Positions 22,878 through 64,000 of a stretch of 64,000 nucleotides of DNA are shown here, piece after piece. A program made the position numbers and the translations under genes. This stretch comes from Gammaproteobacteria bacterium (lineage in GTDB: Bacteria > Pseudomonadota > Gammaproteobacteria > Ga0077536). The notes under the pieces are model-generated. The model saw only the letters and a program-made list of their open reading frames with translations, made no database searches and was not told the origin of the DNA. The stretch is from assembly GCA_021773835.1 (NCBI GenBank), contig JAJFJQ010000020.1, positions 62,001 through 126,000 of the forward strand, read 5' to 3'. Position 1 is the first letter of the stretch. Every line of letters starts with the position of its first letter.

Positions 22878-23090
22878 GGTAGGGATTCTACCGATGGACT
22901 AGCAACGTGGCAAAACTGAACCAATTTAAGTCAGCGCGCGCCGCGAAAATTGCTGATCCGCTAGGCTGAAGAGATGCCCGGCCACACAATTTTGAGACTA
23001 TTGGCCTTGTCGATGCATTAGCTGCTTTAATGTAATTGTCAATTCGGGGATCGGCCGGTTCCTGAGAGAAAATTGCTGGATGACGGACTG

Positions 23091-37672: not shown

Positions 37673-39517
37673 GTGCCACACCGGACTCCTCTGTTAGCCA
37701 TTATTTTGGCACCCATAGTGCTGTTGCTATTGGTCTTGTTATGGAACAAGGCCTTGATGCCGTTATATCGATTTGTCTGGTTTAGCCCAGCGGCAATCGA
37801 GTGGCGTCTAAATAGCGATAGCCCAGCCAAGCGTATCTCCGCGATTAGAGATATAGGGTACTTACCGTCTGTCGAAGGTGTGTTGCTCGACAAACTCATA
37901 CACCGCATGCGCAACGACGAGTCCTCTGATGTTCGTGTGGCCACGATTAACGCGCTCGGCCAGCATGGCCAGAAACGCGCGCTTAGCGATCCGACGATCG
38001 CGGCCTTGAGTGAACTCATTTTGACTGCCGAGGATGACGTCATATTGTCGGCTACCATCGTTGCAGTTGGACAGTCCGCGCTATACAACCAATATCGCGA
38101 GCAGGTTATCGATAGGATCGCGAGTGTATTCAATGAACAGCATGCGCCGTGGCTTTATTCGCGGGCCATCTCGGCACTTGGGCAGCTCGGTGCTGCGCAG
38201 CAGTTGCCAGAACACGTCGTTGCGGTCGTCAACGCGTTATTTACTGATCCGGTACGACCGGGGGACCGCGAAGATGTGGCGCGGGCGTTTAGCGAGATGT
38301 CTAAGGGTCGGTCGCTGCCGCTGTCGACCCTGACAATAATTGCCGATGCGTTGCCAACGGAACCAAACCACCGTATCCGCGGTTCGATTATTTATGCCAT
38401 AGCCTATTCAGCGGTCTACTACCCAAAGTCAGTTGCTGTTTTGAGAGAGGCCTTGAATAGTCCGGACCCGAACACGGTGCAGGCGGCCGAGCACGCACTG
38501 CACATCGTCCGGACCAGCGAGATGCTAGCGGATAAAGATCTTCTGATGCTGGCGCTTGACGTTTCCGAACCGCCGAAGGCGCGATTGACCGCCATGCGTG
38601 CCATTCGCGGTTCGCATATCGACCCGGCCATGTATCCGGCCATCGTATCGTTGGCAGCGGATCAGGAAACCGACATTGCCGTAGTGGCAATCGGTATGTT
38701 TCGACGCTTTGCCAAGTCGCCAACGGATGACTTTGAGAGCGCGGTACTGATCCCTGCAATAAAGCGGGCCATGACTGCGCCGGATCCCGCAATCCGCCAT
38801 GCAGCCTATGGCGTGTTGTCTCGGATTTCCCGGCGCCTGCCAAGCTACGTCCGCGCCGCCGACCTGCCGGCTCAAATTGATATAGGCATGAGTGATCCGG
38901 ATCCTAAAGTTCGGACTGTTGTTCTCCTTATGAAGATACGCGAAGCGTCCGTCGACGCTGAACGAGACTCGCTGATCCAGCGCGCCATCACCGATCCCGA
39001 TCCGTATGTCCGACGTATTGCGGTAGGCTGGTTAGGCACACCAACAATACAAAGTGCTAGGCGGCACACGTTCATTACCCAAGCCTTACAGGACAATGAT
39101 CACGGCGTTCGTGTCGCTGCCGAGAGCGCTCTGAAAAGATGGAATGGGCGTGAACGTCCTTGGCCGATTAAGCTGTGGCAAATGTGGCAAGCCGGCGACG
39201 TTGAGAAGTTCTGGGTTTCGATCCTTATTATGGTGACCGTTGCCACACCGATCCTGATCGGCGGGGCCTTTTTGCTCTATTTCGTAGCTCGGCTATTGAC
39301 CTATTTACAACAGCGCCGTTGGCGCGCAGCAGGGGCACTAGGGGTGGTGGGGATCTGGGGTGCGGCAAGTTACGGTCTATTTGTCCTGTACTTCTTCGCT
39401 GCGCTCGCCGGCGATGTTCAGGGTGCGGAGTTAGCAATGTTGAGCGGTGTTTTGTGGGGTGCCATCGCGGCCTACACGGCGCTTGGCTGGGGCATGCACT
39501 ACCTGGTGCGACGCTAG
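37673..39517 (+). CDS. HEAT-repeat membrane protein
   Basis: A 614-aa protein. One N-terminal membrane helix (LLAIILAPIVLLLLVLLW), then a long soluble part (about 60-490) made of HEAT-like helical repeats (e.g. DVRVATINALGQHG, PDPNTVQAAEHALHI, PDPKVRTVVLLMKI, PDPYVRRIAVGWLG), then three hydrophobic segments at the C-terminus (about 515-545, 555-580, 588-608). The start codon is GTG at 37673 without a clear RBS, so the exact start is uncertain. It is likely a scaffold in the inner membrane. No enzymatic motif is visible. Confidence 0.8.
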   Translation: MPHRTPLLAIILAPIVLLLLVLLWNKALMPLYRFVWFSPAAIEWRLNSDSPAKRISAIRDIGYLPSVEGVLLDKLIHRMRNDESSDVRVATINALGQHGQKRALSDPTIAALSELILTAEDDVILSATIVAVGQSALYNQYREQVIDRIASVFNEQHAPWLYSRAISALGQLGAAQQLPEHVVAVVNALFTDPVRPGDREDVARAFSEMSKGRSLPLSTLTIIADALPTEPNHRIRGSIIYAIAYSAVYYPKSVAVLREALNSPDPNTVQAAEHALHIVRTSEMLADKDLLMLALDVSEPPKARLTAMRAIRGSHIDPAMYPAIVSLAADQETDIAVVAIGMFRRFAKSPTDDFESAVLIPAIKRAMTAPDPAIRHAAYGVLSRISRRLPSYVRAADLPAQIDIGMSDPDPKVRTVVLLMKIREASVDAERDSLIQRAITDPDPYVRRIAVGWLGTPTIQSARRHTFITQALQDNDHGVRVAAESALKRWNGRERPWPIKLWQMWQAGDVEKFWVSILIMVTVATPILIGGAFLLYFVARLLTYLQQRRWRAAGALGVVGIWGAASYGLFVLYFFAALAGDVQGAELAMLSGVLWGAIAAYTALGWGMHYLVRR

Positions 39518-43764: not shown

Positions 43765-43952
43765 ATTGCGGCGAGCGTAATCGCCGGGTGCACTCGTTAT
43801 TGAAGAATAGTTTGATCGAGTGCATCCGCTTCTTCGCCATCACGGTGAGGCCGCAAATGTAGCGTTAATGTGTTTATCCGCACGACTTATTCTGGTCCCA
43901 ACGGCTAGTGCGGATTTAATTTTGATCTTTGTATCGATCGTGGAGGGTGGTA

Positions 43953-44594
43953 ATGGCCGATCAATGGACGTTTAAGAGCAACACATTTGGCAGCTGCAAT
44001 TGTGATGCTAATTGTGGTTGTCAGTTCAATCTGCCGAGCACCCACGGCTTTTGCCAATTCGTTGAAGGCGGGGAAATCGTCGATGGGCATTTCAATGACA
44101 CTTCCCTAACTGGGCTTCGGTGGGCTTTCTTGATCAGCTGGCCCGGCGAGATCGCGGAAGGTGGCGGCACACGCCAAGTCATTATCGATGAACGGGCGGA
44201 TCCGGGGCAACGCGTTGCCCTTGAAAAGATCATCAACGGCGAGTGTGGCGCGCCAGGCAGTAATCACTTCTTCGTCTTTGCCAGTCTTTGTGCGGAGTTT
44301 TTAGAGACGCAATATCTACCGATTGAATATGCCATCGACATCGATCAGCGAACGGCCACGCTAAATGTTCCAGGGCTGATCCAAAGCAAGGGCGAGCCCA
44401 TGATCAATGCCTTCAACGGCGAGCCGTTTCATATCGCACTCGCCCGGCCAAGTGGCAGCTTTGAATTTACCTATGCGGAGATCGGTGCAGGCACTGCGCA
44501 GGTGACGGGCGAATTGAGTATGGATTTACAAGGAACCTATGCGCAGTATTGCGTGCATCACTATGACCAAGATGGACTCGTCACGGCTGCGTGA
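43953..44594 (+). CDS. DUF1326 protein
   Basis: A 213-aa soluble protein that opens with the DUF1326 signature: FKSNTFGSCNCDANCGCQFN, with a Cys cluster (CNC, CGC) suitable for metal binding. FVEGGEIVDGHF and TYAQYCVHHYDQDG are also typical. It starts at 43953 with GGAGGG about five bases upstream; the frame from 43929 uses a TTG and is less likely. Its stop overlaps the GTG start of the DUF2182 gene, so the two are translationally coupled. DUF1326 and DUF2182 are often adjacent; neither role is known. Confidence 0.88.
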   Translation: MADQWTFKSNTFGSCNCDANCGCQFNLPSTHGFCQFVEGGEIVDGHFNDTSLTGLRWAFLISWPGEIAEGGGTRQVIIDERADPGQRVALEKIINGECGAPGSNHFFVFASLCAEFLETQYLPIEYAIDIDQRTATLNVPGLIQSKGEPMINAFNGEPFHIALARPSGSFEFTYAEIGAGTAQVTGELSMDLQGTYAQYCVHHYDQDGLVTAA

Positions 44595-45385
44595 CAACTA
44601 CGTGGACCGCATCGAATAGGTCACTTCGCACTCGCGATTACATTCTGATTCTCACTGCGCTTGCCGGCATTACTGCGCTGGCGTGGTGTTATCTATACAA
44701 ACTAACGCTCGACATGGCCAATATGGATATGTCTTCGATGCCGATGTCGACAATGGTCGGCATGCGAATGTGGAGCGCTGCGGACTATCTCCTGATGTTC
44801 CTCATGTGGGCCGTGATGATGGTTGGGATGATGGTCCCTACGGCAATGCGCGCGGTGCTGGTTTATGCATCGATTGCGAAGCGCGCGGGTGGACAAGGAA
44901 CGCCGGTCGCGTCGACATACTGGTTTGTCGCTGGCTACATTGTGACCTGGACGGTGTTCAGCATTGCGGCGACCATTGTCCAGGGCGAGCTGGATGCTTG
45001 GGGCTTATTGTCTCCGATGATGGTGAGTGCTAGTGCAACATTCGGCGCGGTTTTGCTCATTGCCGCCGGGACCTACCAACTTACGCCGTTAAAAGATGTT
45101 TGCCTAAAACATTGCCAATCACCTGTTATGTATCTAGCTACCCGGTTCAGTCCAGGAGTACTTGGCGCTATCGGTCTTGGCGTACGCCACGGTATCTATT
45201 GCCTTGGCTGTTGTTGGGCAATCATGATGCTGTTGTTTCTTGGTGGGGTTATGAACTTGCTTTGGATTGTCGCGATCACTGGTTTCGTGCTGGCAGAGAA
45301 ATTGTTGCCTGCGAAGCTGCGACTTGCACGCGTCAGCGGGATATTGATGATTAGCACTGGCGCGGTATTTCTCGCGTTTTTATGA
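44591..45385 (+). CDS. DUF2182 membrane protein
   Basis: A 264-aa membrane protein with about six hydrophobic helices. The first periplasmic loop is strikingly Met-rich (MANMDMSSMPMSTMVGMRMW), the central part has the DUF2182 motif AVMMVGMMVPTAMRAVL, and later segments include CLKHCQSP and GIYCLGCCWAIMMLLFLGGV, with Cys pairs in the membrane. The composition suggests soft-metal binding, e.g. Cu(I). It starts with GTG inside the stop of the DUF1326 gene. The function of this family is not established. Confidence 0.88.
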   Translation: MTTTWTASNRSLRTRDYILILTALAGITALAWCYLYKLTLDMANMDMSSMPMSTMVGMRMWSAADYLLMFLMWAVMMVGMMVPTAMRAVLVYASIAKRAGGQGTPVASTYWFVAGYIVTWTVFSIAATIVQGELDAWGLLSPMMVSASATFGAVLLIAAGTYQLTPLKDVCLKHCQSPVMYLATRFSPGVLGAIGLGVRHGIYCLGCCWAIMMLLFLGGVMNLLWIVAITGFVLAEKLLPAKLRLARVSGILMISTGAVFLAFL

Positions 45386-50675: not shown

Positions 50676-51518
50676 ATGCGAAATCGTTACCGAAATTTAA
50701 TAGGTGTCTTAGCGCTGATAGGTGCCGGAGGAATCAACTCCGCTCTAGCGACGAATTGCGCGTTGATCACTGATGAAGCCGCGCGCGCCTGCTGTGACCG
50801 TAACCTACCTGAACAATCGATGCGCCAACAAATCCGCTTGGCCGTGATTGACGAGAAGGGCACCGTTAGCGATATTGGTGCGAAGTTGTCATGGAAGCGA
50901 TTTGACGATGGACAAGCTCGGGCGCGCGTTGACATTACCGCACCGGCGCGCCAGGCGGGCACAATCGTACTGCTTACAGAGCGTGAATCTGAGCAAGGCG
51001 AAGAAGTGCCGGAGCCAGAAGTTGTCATCTACAAGCCAAGTGAGCGCCGCGATCGCTTGGTTACGGTCAGTGCACTGTCGGGCGAAATGTTCGGTACGGA
51101 TTTTAGCTATGAGGACTTCGCACATTTTTATGGTACGGATAAGGAAGTCGATATCGTCCGATTGGCAGATGAGCAATTAGACGGACGTGCCGTGGTCGTG
51201 TTGCAGTCAACGCCAAAGGATTTTGACGCGGCGTTCGATCGCGGTTCGATCTATGCCCGCATAGTAACCCGTTTTGACGCTGCGCAATGCGTCCCGATTT
51301 CAACTCAATTCTATGAGGAAGGCGATGAGTTACGGAAGGAACTTACTGCCACGTCGGAACATATCAAGCAGCTCGATGAACGCTGGATCCCCTATGAAAT
51401 GGTGATGACGGATCTGGCTGAGGAATCTAAAACAGCGCTTACCATCGAAAGCATAGAATTCGATCCCGGTATTAAGGATCGAGTTTTTTCGCGATCCTCT
51501 CTTAAACGCGGGCGCTAA
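50676..51518 (+). CDS. LolA-like outer-membrane lipoprotein-sorting protein
   Basis: A 280-aa periplasmic protein. Signal peptide (RNLIGVLALIGAGGINSALA), then a domain with alternating strands resembling LolA-like beta-barrel half-shells (RQQIRLAVIDEKGTVSDIGA, QARARVDITAPARQAGTIVLLTER, VVIYKPSERRDRLVTVSALSG, GTDFSYEDFAHFYG, VVVLQSTPKD). Members act as periplasmic lipid carriers and are often encoded beside MMPL-type RND exporters, as here: the RND gene starts 18 bases later. Likely supplies or accepts lipid or lipoprotein for that exporter. Confidence 0.85.
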   Translation: MRNRYRNLIGVLALIGAGGINSALATNCALITDEAARACCDRNLPEQSMRQQIRLAVIDEKGTVSDIGAKLSWKRFDDGQARARVDITAPARQAGTIVLLTERESEQGEEVPEPEVVIYKPSERRDRLVTVSALSGEMFGTDFSYEDFAHFYGTDKEVDIVRLADEQLDGRAVVVLQSTPKDFDAAFDRGSIYARIVTRFDAAQCVPISTQFYEEGDELRKELTATSEHIKQLDERWIPYEMVMTDLAEESKTALTIESIEFDPGIKDRVFSRSSLKRGR

Positions 51519-51536
51519 GTCCACAGGTCCACACGC

Positions 51537-54251
51537 GTGCGCGCCCGGCTGATCGATTTCATCATCAACCGCGCAAGCATCGTTGCCTTGGCGGCGCTGC
51601 TACTCGCTAGCTATAGCTGCTATCGCCTGGTCGATTTCAATTCCGCATCGCTGAATATAGAAATTGACGCGTCGCTGATGGGCTTGTTACCCGTTCGCGG
51701 TGGCCCGTTGGAAACGTACGAGCGCGTCCGCGATCGGTTCGGTGGCGATGACATTTTGCTGGTCGCTTGGTTCGACGATGATCTTTTTTCTTCCGATGTG
51801 CTGCGACGCTTCAAACGATTTTCGCGCCGGGCGCAGAGAGTAGACGGTGTCGCCGGTGTTGATAGCCTGGCTAATGCGCTAAATGTGCGGAATGTTGATG
51901 GAGATATTCGAGTCGACCGGTTCCTAAAAAGGCTACCGAAAAAAAACACCGCACTCGATACCTTAAAAGCCGATGCGCTAGCGAGTCCTTTGTATCGCGG
52001 GCAACTAGTCTCAAACGATGGTCGCGGTGCGCTGGTCGCGATTTATTTTGATCCGGAAATAAACTCCTCTGATCTGAAGCGAGCAGTAGAGGAAGTCATT
52101 TTAGCCTCGCATGAAGAGGCGGGCGAGGTTGAGAATTTCGTCTCGGGCCCGGTTCACGCACGCTTAGAAATTAGTCGGATCTTGTTTCAAGACATCCGAC
52201 TCGCATTACCGCTCGCAATACTTGTCACGGCGCTGATTGCCGCGCTGACGCTACGTAACATTCGAGGCGTAGTGCTTCCTTTGTTCGCTACAGGAACCGG
52301 GCTGATAGCTACGCTTACGTTTTTTGTCGCGAACGGTCACGCGCTCAATTTTGTCACCGCCATTGCCCCACCAGTCATATTCGTTATCGGCTTTGCTTTC
52401 GCCGTTCACGTTGTCAGTGAGTTCGATCACGCTTTCACGTCAGTCACTGACAAAATTCTCGCCGTTCGATCGACAGTCGAAGAAGTTTTCGTGCCATTAA
52501 CGTTAACTGCGGTGACGACAGCGGTCGGATTTGCATCACTAGCAACCAGCCCGATTAGTTCGATTCGGGTGTTCGGTATCTACACCGCGCTCGGTACCTT
52601 GTTGTGTTTGGTCGCGGCGCTCCTCGCCATCCCAGCCTTGTTACTTATTTCACCAGTACGCGTTAAGTCGCATGCAGCAAAGAGTCGCTTAGCCGCGTTT
52701 GCGCCGACCCTTGCGCGTTTTGATATTCGCTTCCGTAAACAAATATTCATTGGTAGTGCAATTGTTGCGCTGTTGGCATTGGGTGCGGCCTCACGTCTTG
52801 AAGTCAGCACCGATTATCTGAGCAATTTTTCGGACGATAGCCCGGTGACTCGTAATTTCGAACGTATCCGCACGGAGTTTACCGGTGCTGTACCATTGCA
52901 GATTCTGATTGAAAGCGATGTTCCCGGCGCGTTCTCCGATCCGGTTCACCTCACAAGTCTTGAGAAATTCGAGCAGTGGCTAGAGTCGCAACCCGAAGTT
53001 GGCGTCGCAACCAGTTTGGTCGATTTTATTGGCGTCTTAAACCGTACCTTTCATGCGGAAATCCCTGATATCGGCGCAATTCCTGCAACGCAGGGGGAAG
53101 TCGATGATCTACTGTTCATAGCCGGCGGCGATGAGGCCGAGCGCTTCGTCGACTCGCGTTACCAAAGCACCCTGATTCAAGTACGCACGTCCGCGGTGTC
53201 GACCAATGATCTCACCGGCCTTATTAATCGGGTGGAGGATCGCCTGGCTGATTTGCCCGCTCACCTCAATGGTCAGGTCACGGGCAGTTCCGTACTGCTA
53301 GCGAGAACTTTGGACGATATCGTACGTGGGCAGCTGCTAAGTCTCGCCGGTGCGTTGGTCGTGATATACGTGATTCTCATCGTACTGTTTGGTTCTGTGC
53401 GAGTCGGCGCCATTGCCTTGTTACCAAACGCATTACCGATCGTTTGTTTCTTTGGGATCTTGGGTGTCAGCGGTATAACCCTCAATCTAGCGACGAGTTT
53501 GGTCGCCGCGGTAGTGCTTGGGATAGCGGTTGATGACAGTATCCATTTTCTGTCACGTTTCAATGCCGAGGCGCGCCGGGTGGCTAGCGAATCGGAAGGT
53601 ATTGAACGGGCATTAACCTCTGTTATCAGGCCGGTAACATTTACAACCGCGGCCCTATGTTGCGGATTCATGACCCTCACCCTGGGTGAACTTCGCAGTC
53701 AAATTGAGTTCGGCGGTCTCGCGGCGGCAACCTTATTCATCGCATGGTTTTTTGATTTAGTTTTTACACCGGCACTCGCGGGTCAATTGCGTTTCGTTAC
53801 CTTATGGGAGGTGCTGGCCCTAGATCTCGGCGCGGCACCAAACAAATCCATCCCATTCTTTTCCGGCTTAACAAATCGGCAGGCGCGCATTGCCGCAATC
53901 CTAGGCACGATGCAATCGTTTAAGCAGGGTGAACCCATTATGAAACTGGGCGAACATGGAAAATCCATCCATGTCGTGATCGAAGGCGAAGCTAAGGCTT
54001 ATTTGCTACGCGACGACGGCGAGCACATCTTGAGAACACTCAAACGCGGCGATTTGATCGGAGAAGTCGCATTATTTCACGGCACTCGAACCGCCAATGT
54101 CGATGCGACCAGCGATATGCGGCTGCTGCGTCTCGACAACCCGTGCTTGCAACGTATTCAAACCCGCTACCCCCGCATCGCATCGCAGCTGTATCAAAAT
54201 TTGGCGGTTATTTTGGCTGATCGCTTGGCCGACGTTACAGAGCGACTTTAG
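51537..54251 (+). CDS. MMPL/RND exporter with a C-terminal cyclic-nucleotide-binding domain
   Basis: A 904-aa protein. Twelve-helix RND layout: TM1 about 13-34, a large periplasmic loop with D-rich segments to about 215, five helices (about 218-375: ALPLAILVTALIAALTL, FATGTGLIATLTFFVANG, IAPPVIFVIGFAFAVHVVSE, TAVTTAVGFASLATSP), a second TM and loop, and a second set of helices to about 745. Residues about 778-895 are a CAP-type cNMP domain. Its phosphate cassette IGEVALFHGTRTANV keeps both key residues, Glu843 and Arg851. This implies that cAMP or cGMP gates the exporter. The gene starts at a GTG. Confidence 0.9.
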   Translation: MRARLIDFIINRASIVALAALLLASYSCYRLVDFNSASLNIEIDASLMGLLPVRGGPLETYERVRDRFGGDDILLVAWFDDDLFSSDVLRRFKRFSRRAQRVDGVAGVDSLANALNVRNVDGDIRVDRFLKRLPKKNTALDTLKADALASPLYRGQLVSNDGRGALVAIYFDPEINSSDLKRAVEEVILASHEEAGEVENFVSGPVHARLEISRILFQDIRLALPLAILVTALIAALTLRNIRGVVLPLFATGTGLIATLTFFVANGHALNFVTAIAPPVIFVIGFAFAVHVVSEFDHAFTSVTDKILAVRSTVEEVFVPLTLTAVTTAVGFASLATSPISSIRVFGIYTALGTLLCLVAALLAIPALLLISPVRVKSHAAKSRLAAFAPTLARFDIRFRKQIFIGSAIVALLALGAASRLEVSTDYLSNFSDDSPVTRNFERIRTEFTGAVPLQILIESDVPGAFSDPVHLTSLEKFEQWLESQPEVGVATSLVDFIGVLNRTFHAEIPDIGAIPATQGEVDDLLFIAGGDEAERFVDSRYQSTLIQVRTSAVSTNDLTGLINRVEDRLADLPAHLNGQVTGSSVLLARTLDDIVRGQLLSLAGALVVIYVILIVLFGSVRVGAIALLPNALPIVCFFGILGVSGITLNLATSLVAAVVLGIAVDDSIHFLSRFNAEARRVASESEGIERALTSVIRPVTFTTAALCCGFMTLTLGELRSQIEFGGLAAATLFIAWFFDLVFTPALAGQLRFVTLWEVLALDLGAAPNKSIPFFSGLTNRQARIAAILGTMQSFKQGEPIMKLGEHGKSIHVVIEGEAKAYLLRDDGEHILRTLKRGDLIGEVALFHGTRTANVDATSDMRLLRLDNPCLQRIQTRYPRIASQLYQNLAVILADRLADVTERL

Positions 54252-54329
54252 ATTTTGCTGGCATAGCACAGCGCACGTCGATCGCTATGCGTTAAACTAC
54301 TCCGCTGGATATTCCTCTGATTCTGAAAT

Positions 54330-57300
54330 ATGGGTTTACTCGATGATATCGCCCAGGTGCGGGCGCATCTGGAACAAAATGGTCGTGTGTCCTACCGCGT
54401 ATTGAAGCGCGAGTTCGGGCTCGATGAAGAGGGTCTCGAAGATATCTTGGATGAGCTCGTCGACATGCAAGAGGTCGCGATCCGCGAAGAAAAGGGTTTG
54501 CGATGGCGCGGTGGTGGCGCTACGGGCGTCTCTGAGCCGACCCGTGAGATCCCCGAACCAAGCGCCTATACGCCCAAGCATCTGGCCGAGAAGATCTTGC
54601 AATCACGCTCGGCACTCGAAGGCGAGCGGAAACAAGTGACGGTCTTATTCGCGGACGTTAAGGGATCGATGGATCTTGCCGGCCAGCTTGGCGCAGAGGG
54701 GTGGCACACGATCCTCGATCGCTTTTTTGCGATCTTAAACGATGGTGTGCATCAGTTTGAAGGTACGGTGAATCAATATACCGGTGACGGCATCATGGCC
54801 CTGTTCGGTGCGCCGATTGCGCACGAAGACCATGCACAACGAGCTTGTTACGCCGCACTACAGTTACGCGACGAACTGCGCCGATTCTCAGTCGAACTTC
54901 GAGTCGAGCGAGGGATTGATTTCAGTACCCGCATTGGGATCAACTCCGGTGAAGTGATCGTTGGGAAAATCGGAGACGATCTGCGTATGGATTACACGGC
55001 CCAAGGTCACACAGTTGGCATTGCCCAACGCTTGGAGGCGATAGCGGAATCCGGACACGTCTATCTCAGCGAACATACGGCGCGTCTGGTCGAAGGCTTT
55101 TTTACACTATCCGATCTCGGTGCGGCACAATTGACCGGGGTAGAGGACGCTATCGGGATCTTTGATCTTGAAAGCACCACGGCGGCGCGCACGCGCCTAG
55201 ACGTGTCGCGGTCACGTGGACTCACCCGTTTTGTTGGCCGGGTTGATGAGATGCAAAGTTTGAAGTCGGCCCTTGCCCGAGCACGCCAGGGCCACGGCCA
55301 GGTCGTCGGGGTAATGGGTGAGCCGGGTTTGGGTAAAAGCCGGTTGTGTTTCGAGTTTGTCGAGCGCTGTCGTGGCCAAGGCTTGGCGGTGTATGAGGCG
55401 CACTGTCCCTCGCATGGGAAATCGATCCCGTTCATCCCGATCGTCACGCTGTTTCGCAGTTATTTCGATATCTCAGAGCAAGATTCGGCGGCACAGACAA
55501 GGCAGAAGATCGCGGGCGCCTTGATGTTGCTCGATCCGGGGATGCATTCCAGCCTACCGGTGTTGTTCGAGTTTCTCGGGGTCAATGATCCCAATAACCC
55601 CGCCCCTTCGATGGATCCCGATGCGCGTCAGCGACAGTTGTTCGAGATGCTGCACAAGATATCGCGGGTACAGAATGAACGTCGCATTGCATCGGTGGTG
55701 TTCATAGATGACCTGCATTGGATCGACGACTGGAGCGATGAGTTCGTGGCACAGATGGTGGAGGCGTTTCAGGTCAGCCACACCTTGTTGTTGGTTAACT
55801 TTCGTCCGGAGTATCAGGCGGCGTGGACGGTGAAGCCGCATTATCAACAGTTGCCGTTAGTGCCGTTGGGTCAAGACGCGGTACGCGATATGGTTGCAAG
55901 CCTGCTCGGGGATGATGATTCGGTGTTGCCGTTGACGGAGCGGATCATGCAATGGACGGGTGGTAATCCGTTGTTCTCGGAAGAAGTGATCAACACCTTG
56001 ATTGAGACCGAACAACTGACCGGTGTTCGTGGTGCGTATAGAGTGCAAGGTGATATCGATGCGTTGGAGGTCCCGGCGACGGTTCAATCGATCATAGCCG
56101 CCCGCATCGACCGGCTTGATGAGAACAGTAAGCAACTGCTACAAAGTGCGGGGGTGGTGGGTAAAGAGTTCTCTAGGCCGCTGATCGAGAGCATCTGCGG
56201 GCTCGCCAAGGCGGCGGTGTCCGCTGCGATCGAACGATTGAAGGCATTGGACTTTATCTATGAGACATCGCTATATCCGACCATTGAGTATTCCTTCAAA
56301 CATCCTTTGGTGCATGAAGTCGCCTATGAGACGCAGTTAAAGGACCAACGCGCTGCTCGTCACCAACAAGTGGCGGAGGCGACCGAGGCGTCTGCCGGTG
56401 AACGGCTAGACGAGGTTGCGTCGATGTTGGCGTATCACTGGGAACGTGCCGGTCAAATCGACCAGGCTTTGCATTGGCACCGGCATGCGGCGTTTGTGTT
56501 GTCCAGGTCCGATCTCACGGCGTCGCAACAACATTGGTCCAACGTTCGGCAATTGGTCGATGAGGTCGAACCCACGACGGAGATATTGTCGCTCGGGGCT
56601 GAGGCTTGTTCCTATTTGAATGCGTTCGGTTGGCGCTTGGGCGGCAGCGAACAGGCGTCACAAGCGTATTTTGAAGATGGCAAGGCGATGGCCGAACGTG
56701 CGGGCAATGATCTCCTGCTCGCAACGATCAATGGTACCTATGGGTCGTTTCGTGGCGTAACTGTCGGCGATGCAAACGACTATGTTCGTTTTGCGGACGA
56801 AGCAGTGCGTATTGCGATTAACACTGGCAATCGAGAATTGGAATGCGCGATGCGGGCGTACCAGATATGGGGCTACCTTTTTAGTGGAAGGTTCGAGGAC
56901 GGCCTCGCTGTAGTGAAGAAGATGATGAAGGAGGGGGAGTCTCAAGATGCATTTTACGGTACGCGTTATTCAGGCGGTATTCCGGTCGCGTTTGCGACAC
57001 GCCTAGGCGCAGGGTTGGGGTACTGCTGCATCGGTGAGCGAGAGCGTTCGCTCGAAAGTCTACTTGAATACACTCCCGATGCCTCAACACATCCCGATAT
57101 TCGCTACTTCCACAAGGCAATGGCCTCGTACTGTCTCGGCTTATTAGGTGATTTTGATGAGGCCTTGGCCCACGGAAAAAGAGCAATTAGTGAAGCTGAA
57201 GCAGTCGGTTCGGCCTACAGCAGGGCCACGTTCGCTGGGTTCTTAGGTTCGGTTCAGTACCGCCACGGTGACCTGAGCGACGCTGCGGTGACACTGAGAT

Positions 57301-57731
57301 ATGCGGTCACCGTAATGGAGCAGTCGAAGGCTGCGGGCGGTATGGCAAGTGCTCTCGTCGGAAATCTCGCCCATGTCGAGGTGGCAACAGGTAGTGTGGA
57401 GCCGGGTCGAGCGCGGGCGCAAGCCTGCGTCGAATTCTGTCGGGCACGCAGCTTGTATTGGAACCTAGATCCGTGGCTGGCGCTCACTGATGCGAATATT
57501 GCGCTTGGCAATGAGGTGCAAGCGCTAGAAGCGGTGCAAGAAATTCAACAGCTGATCGATCAAACCGGTAACGTCATGTTTCAGCCGTACCTGCACGAGT
57601 CGCGTGCGAAATATGCCGCAGCGTTTTCATCCGATTGGGATCGCGACGATGAGCTTCGTACCGCCCACCGTTTATTTACCGAATTGCGCGCGCCTGGCCA
57701 TGCCGATCGCATCGCGAAGGAATTCGACTGA
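54330..57731 (+). CDS. Class III nucleotide cyclase-AAA/STAND ATPase-TPR protein (copy 1, winged-helix N-terminus)
   Basis: A 1133-aa protein. Residues 1-60 are a winged-helix-like domain (GRVSYRVLKREFGLDEEG). About 95-265 is a class III cyclase: VTVLFADVKGSMDLAG (metal Asp109), QYTGDGIMALFGAP (Asp153), and GHTVGIAQRLE with Arg234 kept but the expected Asn at position 230 replaced by Gly. About 295-700 is a STAND-type ATPase with Walker A GEPGLGKSRLC (330-340) and FIDDLHWID. The rest is a TPR-like helical tail (EASAGERLDEVASMLAYHWE). It starts 78 bases after the RND gene. It would make cNMP from NTP, controlled by the ATPase and TPR part. Confidence 0.92.
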   Translation: MGLLDDIAQVRAHLEQNGRVSYRVLKREFGLDEEGLEDILDELVDMQEVAIREEKGLRWRGGGATGVSEPTREIPEPSAYTPKHLAEKILQSRSALEGERKQVTVLFADVKGSMDLAGQLGAEGWHTILDRFFAILNDGVHQFEGTVNQYTGDGIMALFGAPIAHEDHAQRACYAALQLRDELRRFSVELRVERGIDFSTRIGINSGEVIVGKIGDDLRMDYTAQGHTVGIAQRLEAIAESGHVYLSEHTARLVEGFFTLSDLGAAQLTGVEDAIGIFDLESTTAARTRLDVSRSRGLTRFVGRVDEMQSLKSALARARQGHGQVVGVMGEPGLGKSRLCFEFVERCRGQGLAVYEAHCPSHGKSIPFIPIVTLFRSYFDISEQDSAAQTRQKIAGALMLLDPGMHSSLPVLFEFLGVNDPNNPAPSMDPDARQRQLFEMLHKISRVQNERRIASVVFIDDLHWIDDWSDEFVAQMVEAFQVSHTLLLVNFRPEYQAAWTVKPHYQQLPLVPLGQDAVRDMVASLLGDDDSVLPLTERIMQWTGGNPLFSEEVINTLIETEQLTGVRGAYRVQGDIDALEVPATVQSIIAARIDRLDENSKQLLQSAGVVGKEFSRPLIESICGLAKAAVSAAIERLKALDFIYETSLYPTIEYSFKHPLVHEVAYETQLKDQRAARHQQVAEATEASAGERLDEVASMLAYHWERAGQIDQALHWHRHAAFVLSRSDLTASQQHWSNVRQLVDEVEPTTEILSLGAEACSYLNAFGWRLGGSEQASQAYFEDGKAMAERAGNDLLLATINGTYGSFRGVTVGDANDYVRFADEAVRIAINTGNRELECAMRAYQIWGYLFSGRFEDGLAVVKKMMKEGESQDAFYGTRYSGGIPVAFATRLGAGLGYCCIGERERSLESLLEYTPDASTHPDIRYFHKAMASYCLGLLGDFDEALAHGKRAISEAEAVGSAYSRATFAGFLGSVQYRHGDLSDAAVTLRYAVTVMEQSKAAGGMASALVGNLAHVEVATGSVEPGRARAQACVEFCRARSLYWNLDPWLALTDANIALGNEVQALEAVQEIQQLIDQTGNVMFQPYLHESRAKYAAAFSSDWDRDDELRTAHRLFTELRAPGHADRIAKEFD
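54580..56700 (+). repeat. Long tandem repeat region shared with 57940-60060
   Basis: The cyclase and ATPase core of copy 1 (about 54580-56700) is nearly identical in protein sequence to copy 2 (about 57940-60060), while many third codon positions differ. Similarity falls off in the TPR tails (after about 56740 and 60100). The repeat is thus old or kept by selection, and not a fresh duplication. Confidence 0.85.
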
Positions 57732-60700
57732 GTGATGAATTGCCCAAACTGCCGACATGACAACGAAGCGGATGCGGCATTTTGCGAAGCCTGCGGTAGC
57801 AAACTCGAACTCAGCTGCCCGCACTGCGCCCGGGTGCTAAAACCGACGGCAAAATTTTGTCCAGGTTGCGGGAACTCGATATCCGCCGCCGAGGAATACG
57901 TTGAACCGGCGCCACGCGCGACCGTCGACTACACGCCGCAGCACCTAGCGGAGAAGATCCTGCAATCGCGCTCGGCCTTGGAAGGTGAACGCAAACAAGT
58001 CACGGTGTTATTCGCGGACGTTAAGGGATCAATGGATCTCGCGGGTAAGCTAGGAGCAGAAGGTTGGCACACCATTCTCGATCGTTTTTTTGCGATCCTA
58101 AACGATGGGGTTCATCAATTTGAAGGCACGGTGAATCAATACACCGGTGACGGCATCATGGCCTTGTTCGGTGCCCCGATCGCGCATGAAGACCACGCAC
58201 AACGGGCTTGCTATGCGGCGCTGCAGTTGCGTGATGAGTTGCGCCGGTTCTCGGTTGAGCTTCGAGTGGAACGGGGTATCGACTTCAGTACCCGCATCGG
58301 AATCAACTCGGGCGAAGTGATCGTCGGCAAGATCGGAGATGACCTACGCATGGACTACACGGCGCAAGGTCACACCGTCGGCATTGCGCAGCGCTTGGAG
58401 TCGATTGCGGAATCTGGACACGTCTATCTCAGCGAACATACGGCGCGCCTAGTCGAAGGGTATTTTAAACTCGGCGATCTCGGTGCGGCGCCACTGGCTG
58501 GCGTTGAAAACCCTATTGGTTTATTCGATCTTGAGAGTACGACCGCCGCGCGCACACGCTTAGACGTCTCACGGTCACGCGGACTCACCCGCTTTGTCGG
58601 TCGGGTTGATGAGATGCAGAGTCTCGATTCGGCACTTGCCCGCGCGCGTCAAGGGCACGGCCAAGTCGTCGGCGTAATGGGTGAGCCCGGTCTAGGCAAA
58701 AGCCGCTTGTGTTTCGAGTTTGTCGAGCGCTGTCGCGCGCAAGGGTTGGCGGTGTATGAGGCACAGTGTCCGTCGCATGGGAAATCGATCCCGTTCATCC
58801 CGATCGTGACCTTGTTCCGCAGTTATTTTGATATATCGGATCAGGATTCCGCTTCTCAGACGCGTCAGAAGATCGCGGGAGCCCTGATGTTGCTTGATCC
58901 GGGGATGCATTCCAGTCTACCGGTTTTGTTCGAGTTTCTAGGGGTCACCGATCCCAATAACCCCGCCCCATCGATGGATCCCGATGCCCGCCAGCGGCAG
59001 CTGTTCGAAATGCTGCATAAGATATCTCGGGTACAAAATGACCGTCGTGTCGCGTCTGTTGTGTTCATAGATGACCTGCATTGGATCGACGACTGGAGCG
59101 ATGAATTCGTGGCGCAGATGGTGGAGGCCTTCCAAGTCAGCCATACGCTGCTGCTGGTTAATTTTCGCCCTGAGTATCAGGCAGCGTGGACGGTCAAGCC
59201 GCATTATCAACAATTACCACTAGTCCCCTTGGGCCAAGACGCGGTGCATGATTTGGTTGCGAGCTTACTCGGGGATGACGATTCGGTGCTGCCGTTAACC
59301 GACCGGATCATGCAATGGACTGGGGGTAATCCCTTGTTCTCGGAAGAAGTGATCAACACGTTGATTGAGACCGAACGGCTGGTTGGTGTGCGTGGCGCCT
59401 ATAAAATACAGGGTGATATCGATGCGCTCGAGGTCCCAGCCACGGTTCAATCGATCATTGCCGCACGTGTCGACCGTCTAGATGACATCAGTAAACAACT
59501 TCTGCAAAGTGCGGCGGTGGTGGGTAGGGAATTCTCGCGACCACTGATCGAGAGCATCTGTGGCATCGCCAAGGCGGAGGTGTCCGGTGCGATTGAACGA
59601 TTAAAGGCATTGGACTTTATCTACGAGACATCGCTATATCCGACCATTGAGTACGCTTTCAAACACCCCTTGGTACATGAAGTCGCCTATGAGACCCAGT
59701 TAAAAGATCAACGAGCTGCTCGTCATCAACAAGTGGCAGAGGCAACGGAAGCCGCTGTCGGCGAACGGGTTGACGAGGTTGCCTCGATGTTGGCTTATCA
59801 CTGGGAGCGTGCAGGTCAAATTGACCAAGCCTTACATTGGCATCGGCATGCAGCCATCGTGCTGTCGGCATCGGATCTGACGACAGCCCAACAACATTGG
59901 CTTAAGGTACGGCAGTTGGTCGATGAGGTCGAACCTACGACAGGGGTTCTGTCGCTCGGCGCTGAAGCTTGTACCTACTTAAACGCGTTTGGTTGGCGCT
60001 TGGGTGGCAGCGAAGAAGCCTCACAAGCGTATTTTGCAGACGGCAAGGCGATGGCGGAACGTGCCGGCAATAACGTTTTACTCGCGACAATAAATGGCAC
60101 CTACGCTTCGTCGCGCGGCATTCTCCTGGGCGATTCAAACGACTACGCGCGATTTTCTGACGAGGCGGTACGCATAGCGAATAGCACTGACGATATCGAA
60201 TTGCGCTGCGCGATGCAGGCCTATCAAGTTTGGGGTTATCTCACCACTGGCAGAAATCATGACGGGATCGCTGTCGCGAATGCAACAATAGAACAGGCGT
60301 CGCCGGAGCCAGGGTATGGTGCTCGCTACACGGGCGGAATGCCGGTGCGGATGGCGTCAACCTTAGGGGCCGGATTTGGGTACTGTAGTGTCGGTGAGCG
60401 GGAGCTCGGATTTGAACTCTTCGATGGAGAGGTTGGAGACGAAACAGGTCATTCGGATTTCCGCTATTTCCACCCAGCGATGAAGGGGTATTTCCTTGGG
60501 TTGCTAGGTGATTTTGACGAGGCCTTGGGACCCGTAAAAAAAGCAATGACCGGCGCTGAAGCGATGGGATCTGCTTACAGTAGAGCGGCATTCGCTGGGT
60601 TTTTAGGTTCAGTTCAATACCGGCCCGGAGACCTTAGCGATGCCGCGACGACGCTTAACTATGCCGTTCGCTTAATGGAAGACGAGAAGACCGCACGCGG

Positions 60701-61091
60701 TTCAGCCGGATTTATTCTCGGAAACCTTGCACACGTTGAAGTGGCAACGGGTGATCCCGAATCTGGTTGTGCACGGGCACAAGCCTGTGTGGAATTTTGC
60801 GAGGCGCGCAACACCTATTGGAGCCTTGACCCGTGGTTGGCACTCGCCAGCGCCAACACAACGCTCGGCAACGCGGCACAAGCCTTAGGCGCGATAAAGC
60901 AACTACAGCAATTAATCGATATGTCAGACGGTAAATTGTGGCAACCGTTTTTGCACGAGGAGCGTGCGAATTACGCTGCGGCGTTTGAGTCAGATTGGGA
61001 TCGAGATGATGAGCTTCGCACGGCTCATCGGTTGTTTACTGAACTGCGGGCCCCGGGCCAAGCCGATCGGATCGCAGAGAAACTAAACTAA
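57732..61091 (+). CDS. Class III nucleotide cyclase-AAA/STAND ATPase-TPR protein (copy 2, double zinc-ribbon N-terminus)
   Basis: A 1119-aa paralog of copy 1. The N-terminus is replaced by two zinc ribbons with four CxxC pairs (C4/C7, C18/C21, C29/C32, C43/C46). The cyclase core (FADVKGSMDLAG, QYTGDGIMALFGAP, GHTVGIAQRLE) and the ATPase (GEPGLGKSRLC, FIDDLHWID) match copy 1 almost residue for residue. The TPR tail has diverged (e.g. SSRGILLGDSNDYARFSDE against GSFRGVTVGDANDYVRFAD). It starts directly after the stop of copy 1 (GTG-ATG, no gap), so they share a message. Confidence 0.92.
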   Translation: MMNCPNCRHDNEADAAFCEACGSKLELSCPHCARVLKPTAKFCPGCGNSISAAEEYVEPAPRATVDYTPQHLAEKILQSRSALEGERKQVTVLFADVKGSMDLAGKLGAEGWHTILDRFFAILNDGVHQFEGTVNQYTGDGIMALFGAPIAHEDHAQRACYAALQLRDELRRFSVELRVERGIDFSTRIGINSGEVIVGKIGDDLRMDYTAQGHTVGIAQRLESIAESGHVYLSEHTARLVEGYFKLGDLGAAPLAGVENPIGLFDLESTTAARTRLDVSRSRGLTRFVGRVDEMQSLDSALARARQGHGQVVGVMGEPGLGKSRLCFEFVERCRAQGLAVYEAQCPSHGKSIPFIPIVTLFRSYFDISDQDSASQTRQKIAGALMLLDPGMHSSLPVLFEFLGVTDPNNPAPSMDPDARQRQLFEMLHKISRVQNDRRVASVVFIDDLHWIDDWSDEFVAQMVEAFQVSHTLLLVNFRPEYQAAWTVKPHYQQLPLVPLGQDAVHDLVASLLGDDDSVLPLTDRIMQWTGGNPLFSEEVINTLIETERLVGVRGAYKIQGDIDALEVPATVQSIIAARVDRLDDISKQLLQSAAVVGREFSRPLIESICGIAKAEVSGAIERLKALDFIYETSLYPTIEYAFKHPLVHEVAYETQLKDQRAARHQQVAEATEAAVGERVDEVASMLAYHWERAGQIDQALHWHRHAAIVLSASDLTTAQQHWLKVRQLVDEVEPTTGVLSLGAEACTYLNAFGWRLGGSEEASQAYFADGKAMAERAGNNVLLATINGTYASSRGILLGDSNDYARFSDEAVRIANSTDDIELRCAMQAYQVWGYLTTGRNHDGIAVANATIEQASPEPGYGARYTGGMPVRMASTLGAGFGYCSVGERELGFELFDGEVGDETGHSDFRYFHPAMKGYFLGLLGDFDEALGPVKKAMTGAEAMGSAYSRAAFAGFLGSVQYRPGDLSDAATTLNYAVRLMEDEKTARGSAGFILGNLAHVEVATGDPESGCARAQACVEFCEARNTYWSLDPWLALASANTTLGNAAQALGAIKQLQQLIDMSDGKLWQPFLHEERANYAAAFESDWDRDDELRTAHRLFTELRAPGQADRIAEKLN

Positions 61092-61094
61092 ACA

Positions 61095-64000
61095 GTGAAC
61101 TGCCCGAGCTGCCAACACGAAAACAACGACAACGCTAAATTCTGCGAATCCTGCGGGACCAAGCTCGGTCGAGCCTGCGCGAACTGCGGTGAGAGTCTCT
61201 CAAGCGAAGCGCGCTTTTGTCCGAGATGCGGTACCGCTGTTGTAGCTAGCGCCAACAGCGAACGTCCGGTATCGCGAACAGCCGCCGACTACACCCCAAA
61301 ACACCTGGCCGACAAGATCCTCAATTCACGCTCTGCGCTTGAAGGTGAGCGCAAACAAGTCACGGTGCTATTTGCGGACGTTAAACAATCGACAGAATTA
61401 GCTGCCGCTGTGGACGTCGAAGATTGGCACCAAATTCTCGATAGATTTTTTACGCTATTGAGTGAAGGCGTACATCGTTACGAAGGTACGATTAACCAAT
61501 ACACCGGTGATGGCGTAATGGCATTGTTCGGCGCGCCGGTGGCGCATGAAGATCATGCCCAGCGCGCGTGTTGGGCCGCATTATCGTTGCTGGAGGACAT
61601 TCGTAATTTCGCGCAGGAGATCAGGCGTCGGCACGGGCTGAACTTTCAGATCCGGATTGGAATTAACTCAGGCGAAGTGGTCGTCGGTAAAATTGGCGAT
61701 GATTTGCGGATGGATTACACAGCCCAAGGCGCCGTGGTTCATCTCGCATCACGAACACAAGATCTAGCTGAGGCAGGCACCGCTTACCTCGCGCCGGTCA
61801 CAGCAGAACGGGTCGGGCCTTACTTTCAGCTGGAAAGCCTCGGCGAATTTCAAGTTAAGGGCGTTGATGCACCGCAGAGCCTTTATCGTCTAATTGGCGC
61901 AGGTGAAGCGAGTTCCAATTTCGACGTAGCGCGCAGTCGGGGCCTCACGTCGTTCGTTGGCCGCAACAATGAAATGCAGATCCTCGAGGCGGCGCTCGAA
62001 CAGGCACGCGCCGGCAACGGACAGGTGGTGGGGATCGGGGCGGAAGCCGGGACTGGCAAGAGCCGATTATGTTTTGAATTTTTGCAGGATTTACGCGATC
62101 GCGGTCTAAAGGTCTTGTATGGGACTTGTGTCGCACACGGTAAGAACCTCGCCTTTCATCCAATTCTGCAAGTGCTGCGCAACTACTACGGCATCATCGA
62201 TCAAGATTCGGCTGGTGAGGCTCGCCAGAAAGTTGACGCGCGCATGGCTGCCTTAGGCCACAGCTTTCGCGAGGACCTACCGCTAATCCATGAATTTCTT
62301 GGTATTTCCGATCCCAACGAACCGCCGTCGACGCTACCACCGGAAGCGCGTCAGCGGCGCCTATTCGCATTGCTTCGCGAGAATCTGCGACACGGCCCTG
62401 AGCCGGGACAACGGGTCGGTATCGTTGTGATTGAGGATCTGCACTGGATTGACGAAGGCAGCGATGAATGGATAAGCCATTGGGTTGACTCGACGGCCGG
62501 CGCACATAGTTTGTTGGTCGTCAATTTTCGCCCCGAATATCATCCGACCTGGTCGCACCGCACCCATTATCAGCAGATCTCCTTAGCGCCGTTATCTCTC
62601 GAGACGACTCGCGAATTGCTGACGTCTCTGTTGGGTCACGATGCCTCAATCCCCAGCCTTATCGACCGTGTGCATTTGGAGACCGGCGGCAATCCATTTT
62701 ATGCGGAGGAGGTTGTGCAAAGCCTGATTGAATCCGCGCAACTCATCGGCCATCCAGCGAATTATGTTCTCCAGCGAGAGGTCGCGCGACTCAATATCCC
62801 AGCAAGCATCCAAGCCGTTCTGGCGGCGCGTATTGACCGCCTTAATGAGCGCGGAAAACGTGTTCTGCAAGTTGCTTCGGTGATCGGAAAAGATTTCGAA
62901 GAATCTGTATTAGGTGAGGCCGTTGAGTTATCTGAGACGGAATTGCGTGAGGCAATTAATCTGTTGCGCGAGGCGGAGTTTGTCAACGAGCAGCAGTTGT
63001 ATCCCGTTACAGTCTATTCTTTTAAGCATCCGCTAACGCAACAGGTCGCCAATGAGTCGCTGCTCCGCGAGACGCGCTGGGAGTTACATAAAAAAGTCGC
63101 AGAAGCGCTGGAAAGACGAAGTTCGGATCTGGGTCGCGACGCCGCCTTGCTTGCTCACCATTATGATGCGGCGAATGAACCTATTACCGGTGCGCGTTGG
63201 CATTCGCGCGCTGCAGAGTGGATCAATGTTAATGATGTAAGCGCTGCCGCAACACATGCCCGTGCCGTGATCAATGCACTGGAAAACCGGGAAGATACGG
63301 AAGGCGCTTATACACTTTTAGCGGCAGCGGCTTGGAAGTTGTTGGGATTGTGCATTCGGATAGGAGTCCTGCCAGACGCCGACGATATTTTTTTGCGTGG
63401 TACGAAATGGGCTGAGCATGCGGGTGACCCGTCAGTAGAGGCCGCGATTTGCGGACTCTATTCCGGGATCCTCGCGGTCGATGGCCGAATGACAGAATCG
63501 ATGGAAGTTAACGACCGATATAAGGCGCTTGCCGTAGAGGTTGGCGATCCCGAGTTGATTCTCATCTCCAATGCCTGGGCATACCAGATTATCCGTATGG
63601 GCAGGTTCGACGAAGCGGAGGCTGGGGTCCGAAAGGCGATTTCTGTCGGCGAACGGAATCCGGAGTTTGGTAGAAAATTTTACGGGGTTGGTATGACGGG
63701 TTTGTTTCTGTTCTGGTTAGCGGACATCCAGGCGCACCGCGGTCATAGCCGAGACGCGAGCAATGATTTTGAGCAGGCTCTCGCATGGGTCATAAGGCAC
63801 CAGGAGACCGAGGCGCATATCTATCTGATGTACACCCTATCGGCGCGGATCAGAGTTTTCGGAGGGGCGCACGAGCGTCTGCCGATGCTCCGCGATGGCG
63901 CTGCAATGGCAGAGGAATTCGGTGCGGTGTGGCCGCTGACGATAGCCCGTGTGGCCCTTGCGGAGGTGCTGCTCGCTGTTGGCGGTGCAGCGGACGAAGT
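61095..64000 (+). CDS. Class III nucleotide cyclase-AAA/STAND ATPase-TPR protein (copy 3, partial at the window end)
   Basis: An open frame from a GTG at 61095 to the right edge, at least 968 codons, with no stop seen. Two zinc ribbons open it (MNCPSCQHEN, FCESCG, CANCGE, FCPRCG). Cyclase part: VLFADVKQSTELAAAV, INQYTGDGVMALFGAP, then AQGAVVHLASRTQ, where the Asn is His and the second Arg position is kept. The ATPase Walker A is GAEAGTGKSRLC, with IEDLHWIDEGSD as Walker B. Identity to copies 1 and 2 is clearly lower throughout. It starts three bases after copy 2. Confidence 0.9.
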   Translation, partial: MNCPSCQHENNDNAKFCESCGTKLGRACANCGESLSSEARFCPRCGTAVVASANSERPVSRTAADYTPKHLADKILNSRSALEGERKQVTVLFADVKQSTELAAAVDVEDWHQILDRFFTLLSEGVHRYEGTINQYTGDGVMALFGAPVAHEDHAQRACWAALSLLEDIRNFAQEIRRRHGLNFQIRIGINSGEVVVGKIGDDLRMDYTAQGAVVHLASRTQDLAEAGTAYLAPVTAERVGPYFQLESLGEFQVKGVDAPQSLYRLIGAGEASSNFDVARSRGLTSFVGRNNEMQILEAALEQARAGNGQVVGIGAEAGTGKSRLCFEFLQDLRDRGLKVLYGTCVAHGKNLAFHPILQVLRNYYGIIDQDSAGEARQKVDARMAALGHSFREDLPLIHEFLGISDPNEPPSTLPPEARQRRLFALLRENLRHGPEPGQRVGIVVIEDLHWIDEGSDEWISHWVDSTAGAHSLLVVNFRPEYHPTWSHRTHYQQISLAPLSLETTRELLTSLLGHDASIPSLIDRVHLETGGNPFYAEEVVQSLIESAQLIGHPANYVLQREVARLNIPASIQAVLAARIDRLNERGKRVLQVASVIGKDFEESVLGEAVELSETELREAINLLREAEFVNEQQLYPVTVYSFKHPLTQQVANESLLRETRWELHKKVAEALERRSSDLGRDAALLAHHYDAANEPITGARWHSRAAEWINVNDVSAAATHARAVINALENREDTEGAYTLLAAAAWKLLGLCIRIGVLPDADDIFLRGTKWAEHAGDPSVEAAICGLYSGILAVDGRMTESMEVNDRYKALAVEVGDPELILISNAWAYQIIRMGRFDEAEAGVRKAISVGERNPEFGRKFYGVGMTGLFLFWLADIQAHRGHSRDASNDFEQALAWVIRHQETEAHIYLMYTLSARIRVFGGAHERLPMLRDGAAMAEEFGAVWPLTIARVALAEVLLAVGGAADE

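Follow-up and report, generated by a model that had tools for sequence, protein, structure and literature searches.

Recurrent pairing of giant class III cyclases with an MmpL-type exporter that carries a cyclic-nucleotide-binding domain: a putative switch for envelope export

Introduction

Can a cyclic nucleotide exert direct control over a pump that serves the bacterial envelope? This question is raised by a locus in the 6.1 Mb genome of a gammaproteobacterium (GCA_021773835.1), at the end of a stretch of 64,000 nucleotides (contig C12:62001-126000), referred to here as the window. Five open reading frames lie in series on the forward strand, from position 50676 to beyond position 64000 (gaps of 18, 78, 0, and 3 bases), and encode a LolA-like periplasmic protein, an MmpL-type exporter of the resistance-nodulation-division (RND) superfamily with a C-terminal domain of the type that binds cyclic nucleotide monophosphates (cNMPs), and three giant proteins, CYC1, CYC2, and CYC3, which combine a class III cyclase domain with an ATPase and tetratricopeptide repeats (TPRs). 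A preliminary description of the window had reported this run of genes, which is borne out by the positions of the reading frames, and had proposed that the cyclases gate the exporter.

The evidence presented here makes it moderately probable that the locus encodes a module for envelope export that is controlled by a cyclic nucleotide. No description of a cNMP domain on an RND or MMPL protein was found in the literature searched, which mostly excluded subscription journals, and we know of no RND-superfamily pump that is under the direct control of a cyclic nucleotide.

The Exporter and Its LolA-like Partner

The exporter matches the MMPL family in two stretches (PF03176, E=7e-28, 98 bits against a cut-off of 20.5), and its AlphaFold2 model, based on an alignment of 42 relatives (pLDDT 86.8, pTM 0.80), predicts 12 transmembrane (TM) helices, two periplasmic domains, and, after TM12, a beta-roll in the cytoplasm that is followed by a C-terminal helix. 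This modelled arrangement, with the periplasmic loops placed after TM1 and TM7, is that of the RND fold, and the closest solved structures are those of MmpL5, MmpL4, MmpL3, and HpnN (TM-score 0.6-0.8), the last of which is also matched by sequence (E=6.5e-9). The protein scores below the curated cut-offs of the named subfamilies compared, that is, HAE3 (184 against 352 bits), HpnN (78 against 752), BstA (31 against 1400), and MmpL (actII), and the model places it in the MmpL/HpnN-like (HAE) branch of the RND superfamily, well outside these subfamilies. An aspartate pair in TM10, Asp666-Asp667, is invariant in the first alignment of the exporters, and Asp666 is also invariant in the 42-sequence alignment; from what is known of the family, we take this pair to be the RND proton relay.

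The known members of the MmpL3, MmpL4, MmpL5, and HpnN groups carry lipid or lipid-like cargo, and the lipid export suggested in the preliminary description accords with the shared fold, although a lipid cargo is something that we can only infer for this exporter. The neighbourhood was also considered as a lipid-synthesis pathway that might name the cargo, and was rejected, given that the flanking genes differ between loci. In one locus of the Myxococcota, a patatin/NTE-like phospholipase with a cNMP domain of its own is encoded just 5' of a cNMP-fused exporter (L077:358-2697), which may point to a phospholipid, or a product of one, as the cargo.

The first gene of the run encodes a protein that matches PF17131 at 114 bits (cut-off 30), as well as the structures 3bk5 and 9tp6, the "outer membrane lipoprotein-sorting protein", which upholds the original LolA-like assignment (the E-value is given in Table 1). 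Its hydrophobic N terminus, read from the sequence by eye, resembles a signal peptide and ends in ALA (LALIGAGGINSALA). A LolA-like gene adjoins most of the orthologues of the exporter.

The Cyclic-Nucleotide-Binding Domain

Residues 793-874 of the exporter match the cNMP_binding family PF00027 at 62 bits, against a cut-off of 27.5, and the domain also matches PKG, the regulatory subunits of PKA, and SthK by sequence. In the model, the folded domain includes strands at residues 791-867 and helices up to residue 903, which agrees with the range of 778-895 proposed at the outset. Glu843 and Arg851, which correspond to the positions that contact the ribose and the phosphate in known cNMP domains, are conserved in 90% or more of the relatives in each of two sets (24 and 42 sequences), down to approximately 25% identity. 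A CAP/PKA-type fold with this Glu/Arg cassette supports a putative function in nucleotide binding.

The cNMP-fused exporter was found in 21 of the 369 genomes sampled across the Gammaproteobacteria. It is also present in many genomes of the family to which the window belongs, in further classes of the phylum, and, in a sampling through named loci only, in the Myxococcota and others. The exporters of two GC-rich loci (L073 and L078) were called from stop-to-stop frames. On an unrooted tree of 78 exporters, the presence of the domain is explained by only two changes, which suggests that it is ancient, and that two branches probably lost it. A class III cyclase is encoded in 20 of the 21 genomes that have the exporter, in comparison with 218 of the 348 that lack it (p=0.0016, unadjusted for genome size).

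A number of other cNMP-related proteins are found in the vicinity of these exporters. Stand-alone cNMP-domain proteins adjoin the exporter in two loci (L095:12608-13576 and L156:12233-12613), and possibly represent a receptor supplied in trans; the L095 exporter has no fused domain of its own. A sulfate permease with STAS, cNMP, and rhodanese domains (L142:14630-17437) and a HAMP-cyclase-like protein (L169:8472-10070) are each encoded near a cNMP-fused exporter, and the latter has lost both metal-binding aspartates (to Glu and Ala), and is an apparent pseudo-cyclase. A CRP-family regulator is encoded 3' of the closest orthologue of the exporter (L041:14045-14866, in genome G017).

The Giant Cyclases

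Each of the three giants matches Guanylate_cyc (PF00211) above its cut-off (E 1e-20 to 1e-22) and AAA_16 (E about 1e-22), while the matches to the TPRs are weak, and fall below the cut-off. A weak winged-helix-like match (FeoC-like, E=0.002) is found at the N terminus of CYC1, and double zinc ribbons (E about 1e-13) at those of CYC2 and CYC3. The domains originally read from the translations are thus recovered by Pfam, although the three giants represent a single family, rather than three independent parts. CYC1 and CYC2 are 83% identical overall, reaching 95% in the cyclase and ATPase regions and 67% in the TPRs, with different N-terminal domains, and have the appearance of recent paralogues that arose by tandem duplication. 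CYC3 is 39% identical to both.

The residues of the active site were read from an alignment with the Pseudomonas cyclase CyaB (3r5g). Both metal-binding aspartates and the transition-state arginine are kept in CYC1-3, and the Asp position is occupied by threonine, as in CyaB. The two metal aspartates are present in all the giants compared, and the transition-state asparagine is retained in the giant of Solimonas. The three window proteins thus have the two-metal-aspartate signature of the class III cyclases, but not the canonical Lys/Asp plus Asn/Arg set. In the ATPase region, the P-loop GxGKS and a downstream aspartate are invariant among 13 giants, and the predicted combination of a P-loop ATPase (Walker A and B motifs) with a repeat sensor is what is expected of a STAND protein. 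The giants also match the TOMM_kin_cyc model (TIGR03903, E=6e-82), at 275-276 bits against a cut-off of 706, and have no kinase region. The window genome contains 23 matches to PF00211, several of them outside the giant family, and the giant cyclase-ATPase-TPR family has 29 matches in one relative, G006 (4.5 Mb), a large lineage-specific expansion.

Recurrent Pairing of Cyclase and Exporter

The association seen in the window recurs. A search across genomes for cNMP-ended MMPL proteins with adjacent cyclase-AAA-TPR genes, as the preliminary description had envisaged, recovered a giant cyclase within 10 kb of nine of the 72 copies of the cNMP-fused exporter sampled, that is, in the window and eight other loci. 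A cyclase-LolA-exporter series on one strand is found in two Solimonas species, one of them Solimonas sp. SE-A11 (loci L078 and L079), and in G146 (L140) and G060 (L141). In G262 (L139), a cyclase 83% identical to that of G146 is interrupted by the end of the contig. A cyclase-exporter pair is present in G002 (L063) and G009 (L064), and the giant and the exporter of G006 (L046) are arranged divergently, an adjacency that may be due to chance, because this genome has so many giants. The gene order varies, with the giants downstream of the exporter in the window, and upstream in Solimonas, G146, and G060. In G009, a CRP-family regulator with an N-terminal extension of approximately 340 residues is encoded directly 5' of the giant and the fused exporter, on the same strand (L064:16493-18154), a locus that unites sensor, exporter, and regulator.

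The giants could, in principle, be numerous mobile paralogues, three of which landed beside the exporter by chance. Their abundance in some relatives, such as G006, the tandem duplication of CYC1 and CYC2, and the many exporters with no adjacent giant would all be compatible with such a coincidence. However, the pairing is not random. When the window is excluded, the two genes are adjacent in six of the 11 genomes that hold both, in comparison with an expectation of 0.10-0.19, a nominal probability of 1e-9 to 1e-11 that has to be discounted because some of the genomes are related. At least 46 other RND transporters were listed in eight giant-bearing genomes of the same family, and none of these is within 5 kb of a giant (the nearest of those listed lies at 8.4 kb), in contrast with four of the eight fused exporters. 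In addition, the three genomes with a single giant (G146, G060, and G009) each have it beside the exporter. Coincidence is already unlikely on these counts, and family expansion is considered to be a quite improbable explanation of the locus.

No giant was found in the 52 loci of exporters that lack the cNMP domain, in comparison with the nine of 72 noted above (p=0.006, or p=0.05 when both flanks have to extend for at least 4.5 kb), although both comparisons are confounded by lineage. At least seven changes of adjacency fall on the tree of the exporters, and seven on that of the giant cyclases, counts that cannot separate gain from loss. Repeated gain is favoured because the cyclases beside the exporters of the window, G002, G006, and G009 have separate nearest kin, placed elsewhere in the genomes, and the trees thus favour the repeated recruitment of cyclases from different branches. 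Solimonas, G146, and G060 may share a single ancestral pairing, because both of their proteins group together, albeit on long branches. If the receptor reads the product of the enzyme, varied giants would be expected to be paired repeatedly with the exporter that bears this receptor, as is seen here.

Selective Constraint and the Question of Catalysis

Strong constraint is found at both ends of the proposed pathway, that is, in the cyclase and in the cNMP domain, in comparisons of non-synonymous to synonymous substitution rates (dN/dS) that rest on small counts. In the cyclase domain, CYC1 and CYC2 differ by 88 synonymous and 12 non-synonymous changes (dN/dS 0.020, in comparison with 0.115 in the TPRs), and this domain is therefore certainly not decaying, a pattern that fits one output with a diversified input. 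Between the two Solimonas species, dN/dS is 0.009 in the cyclase domain and 0.017 in the cNMP domain, in comparison with 0.088 in the RND core and 0.105 in the cyclase protein outside its cyclase domain. The same trend is observed in the pair formed by G146 and G262 (0.025 in the cNMP domain against 0.078 in the core). Of four pairs that lack an adjacent giant, two show stronger constraint on the cNMP domain than on the core, and two show the same constraint on both.

A number of observations weigh against cyclic-nucleotide control by the giants. The substrate-binding lysine is replaced by glutamine in CYC1-3, and the transition-state asparagine by glycine, glycine, and histidine, respectively, and cyclase activity is not assured because these usual residues are absent. 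In the receptor, the loop from Glu843 to Arg851 is one residue shorter than in PKA and PKG, and one relative (L042) has lost both the Glu and the Arg of the pocket. There is no giant within 10 kb in 63 of the 72 exporter loci, including those on contigs that end early, nor is there a cyclase alongside the closest orthologue of the exporter (L041, 56%), while 28 of the 29 giants of G006, and most of the giants in these genomes, are not beside an exporter. Given that most exporters have no adjacent giant, the arrangement is not an obligate operon. The preliminary description had named the retention of the exporter without the cyclases as the finding that would speak against it, and this is what is seen in most relatives, which removes the obligate operon, but leaves the control by a cyclic nucleotide standing.

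These points raise an alternative in which the exporter is controlled by nucleotides from other, canonical cyclases, and the giants are non-enzymatic STAND sensors, in which the degenerate cyclase domains would be structural or nucleotide-binding elements, and which regulate the exporter by contact, or merely share the locus. The altered active sites, the further PF00211 proteins of the window genome, the wide occurrence of the exporter with no adjacent giant, and the presence of class III cyclases in almost all the exporter genomes would fit this alternative. The cyclase domain is, however, under tighter constraint than the remainder of the protein (dN/dS 0.009-0.020), both metal aspartates are kept throughout the giants, and the asparagine persists in Solimonas. 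A departure from the canonical residues is also compatible with catalysis in a TPR-linked class III cyclase of Xanthomonas campestris, XC_0250, in which Leu and Ala replace the Asn and Arg, and which makes cGMP in vitro (PMC3770947). On balance, the non-enzymatic alternative is considered to be unlikely, and synthesis of a nucleotide by the giants is the preferred interpretation.

Proposed Mechanism

Under the control proposed here, the MmpL-type protein, powered by the proton gradient, would extract its cargo, a lipid or another hydrophobic compound, from the inner membrane, and pass it to the LolA-like carrier in the periplasm. The cytoplasmic C-terminal domain of the exporter would bind a cyclic mononucleotide, which would, in turn, alter transport. 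The giants would act as STAND-type sensors, in which the zinc ribbon or winged helix, together with the TPRs, take in cytoplasmic signals, the ATPase serves as the switch, and the nucleotide is produced near the exporter by the cyclase domain, with three giants providing three inputs onto one output. The signal is possibly cGMP or a pyrimidine nucleotide, because the active sites of the cyclases are non-canonical.

The gating proposed in the preliminary description fares well in part, in that the recurrent pairing indicates that the cyclases and the exporter belong together, and the residues of the nucleotide pocket are conserved in sequence, while the gating itself is a step that we infer. 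The chances are evenly poised for the most specific version of this mechanism, in which the nucleotide made by a STAND-cyclase directly opens or closes an MmpL-type lipid pump of the outer envelope through its cNMP domain, and in which such cyclases were recruited independently in several lineages.

Comparison with Known Systems

The nearest parallel is that of XC_0250 and the adjacent XC_0249, a diguanylate cyclase with cNMP and GGDEF domains, which is activated by cGMP (PMC3770947). Both loci present a cyclase-TPR protein with non-canonical residues beside a cNMP-domain effector, although the effector here is an exporter, and has no GGDEF domain. XC_0250 also differs from the giants in its size (886 residues) and its N-terminal cyclase, and no ATPase domain is reported in the accessible part of its description (PMC3770947). 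By analogy, the locus may be viewed as a cyclase linked to its effector, which in this case is an exporter.

The exporter resembles MmpL3, MmpL4, MmpL5, and HpnN in its predicted fold, its sequence match to HpnN, and its proton-relay aspartates, but the regulatory tails of these proteins are not known to be cNMP domains, and the partner here is LolA-like. A cNMP domain at the cytoplasmic C terminus of a transport protein is also found in SthK, MloK1, and the cNMP-tailed SulP permeases, which have unrelated channel or permease folds, and are not known to have a dedicated adjacent cyclase. The giants, in turn, are comparable with Rv0386 and TOMM_kin_cyc in the fusion of a class III cyclase to a STAND-type ATPase and repeats, and differ from the latter in the lack of a kinase domain. 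The mycobacterial Rv0386 has a glutamine at the lysine position, and is active. To our knowledge, proteins of these types have not been linked to an exporter.

In the Pycsar defence systems, as in the window, a cyclase gene adjoins the gene of a membrane effector with a cNMP domain, which would suggest an infection-triggered cyclase that makes cyclic CMP or cyclic UMP, with the RND protein acting as a killing effector. The cyclase domains give weak PADLOC matches to PycC (E=2e-20 at best), and the cNMP domain to PycTIR and PycC. These matches would be in line with this interpretation, but they span only the generic cyclase or cNMP domain that these systems share. Unlike a Pycsar effector, the protein here is a complete proton-relay exporter with a periplasmic partner, kept without the cyclase in many genomes, and the neighbouring genes are of a housekeeping type, with no defence genes seen among them. 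A role in defence is thus highly improbable, and the control of export is the function retained here.

Layout of the Locus

The coordinates of the features are presented in Table 1. The start of CYC2 is likely to be the ATG at 57735, and CYC3, which extends for 466 bases beyond the window, has its end at C12:126466 (64466 in window coordinates). A scan of the 78-base gap ahead of CYC1 found no terminator-like site, and promoter and terminator scans at the locus returned no more matches than expected by chance, or fewer. The PrkA-YeaH-SpoVR trio (identified by Pfam) lies 5' of the locus, and aldehyde-dehydrogenase-like and APH-like genes, judged from their translations, lie 3' of it on the opposite strand. 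Elsewhere in the window, a SpoIIE-type phosphatase is fused to MHYT repeats (23073-25265), a HEAT-repeat protein of 614 residues (37673-39517) is flanked by glutathione S-transferase (GST) and sulfotransferase genes, and DUF1326 and PpoB2 (copper-chaperone-like) genes form an overlapping pair (43929-45385).

Table 1. Features of the locus, in window coordinates.
Feature	Position	Strand	Details
LolA-like periplasmic protein	50676..51518	+	280 aa; PF17131 E=8e-33
MmpL-type RND exporter with C-terminal cNMP domain	51537..54251	+	904 aa; 12 predicted TM helices
Asp666-Asp667 in TM10 of the exporter, putative proton relay	53532..53537	+	Conservation
Predicted cytoplasmic cNMP-binding domain, exporter residues 770-904	53844..54248	+	PF00027 E=5e-17
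Putative phosphate-binding cassette, Glu843 to Arg851, GEVALFHGTRTA	54063..54089	+	Alignment with PKG
CYC1: winged-helix-like N terminus, class III cyclase, AAA_16/STAND ATPase, TPR	54330..57731	+	1133 aa
CYC1 class III cyclase domain	54621..55199	+	Both metal Asp and Arg kept; Lys to Gln, Asn to Gly
CYC2: double zinc ribbon, cyclase, AAA_16, TPR	57732..61091	+	1119 aa; CYC1 paralogue
CYC3: double zinc ribbon, cyclase, AAA_16, TPR	61095..64000 and on	+	1123 aa in full

Implications

The recurrence of this pairing in unrelated bacteria suggests an undescribed on/off switch for lipid export. If this is correct, the exporter would be the first RND transporter known to be directly controlled by a cyclic nucleotide, and the export of envelope lipids could be switched at the level of the protein, within seconds. 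The set is carried by a cultured bacterium, Solimonas sp. SE-A11, in which the sensing and the output of the giants would be directly testable. The abundant giant cyclase-STAND-TPR proteins, most of which have an unknown output, would, in turn, gain a defined target.

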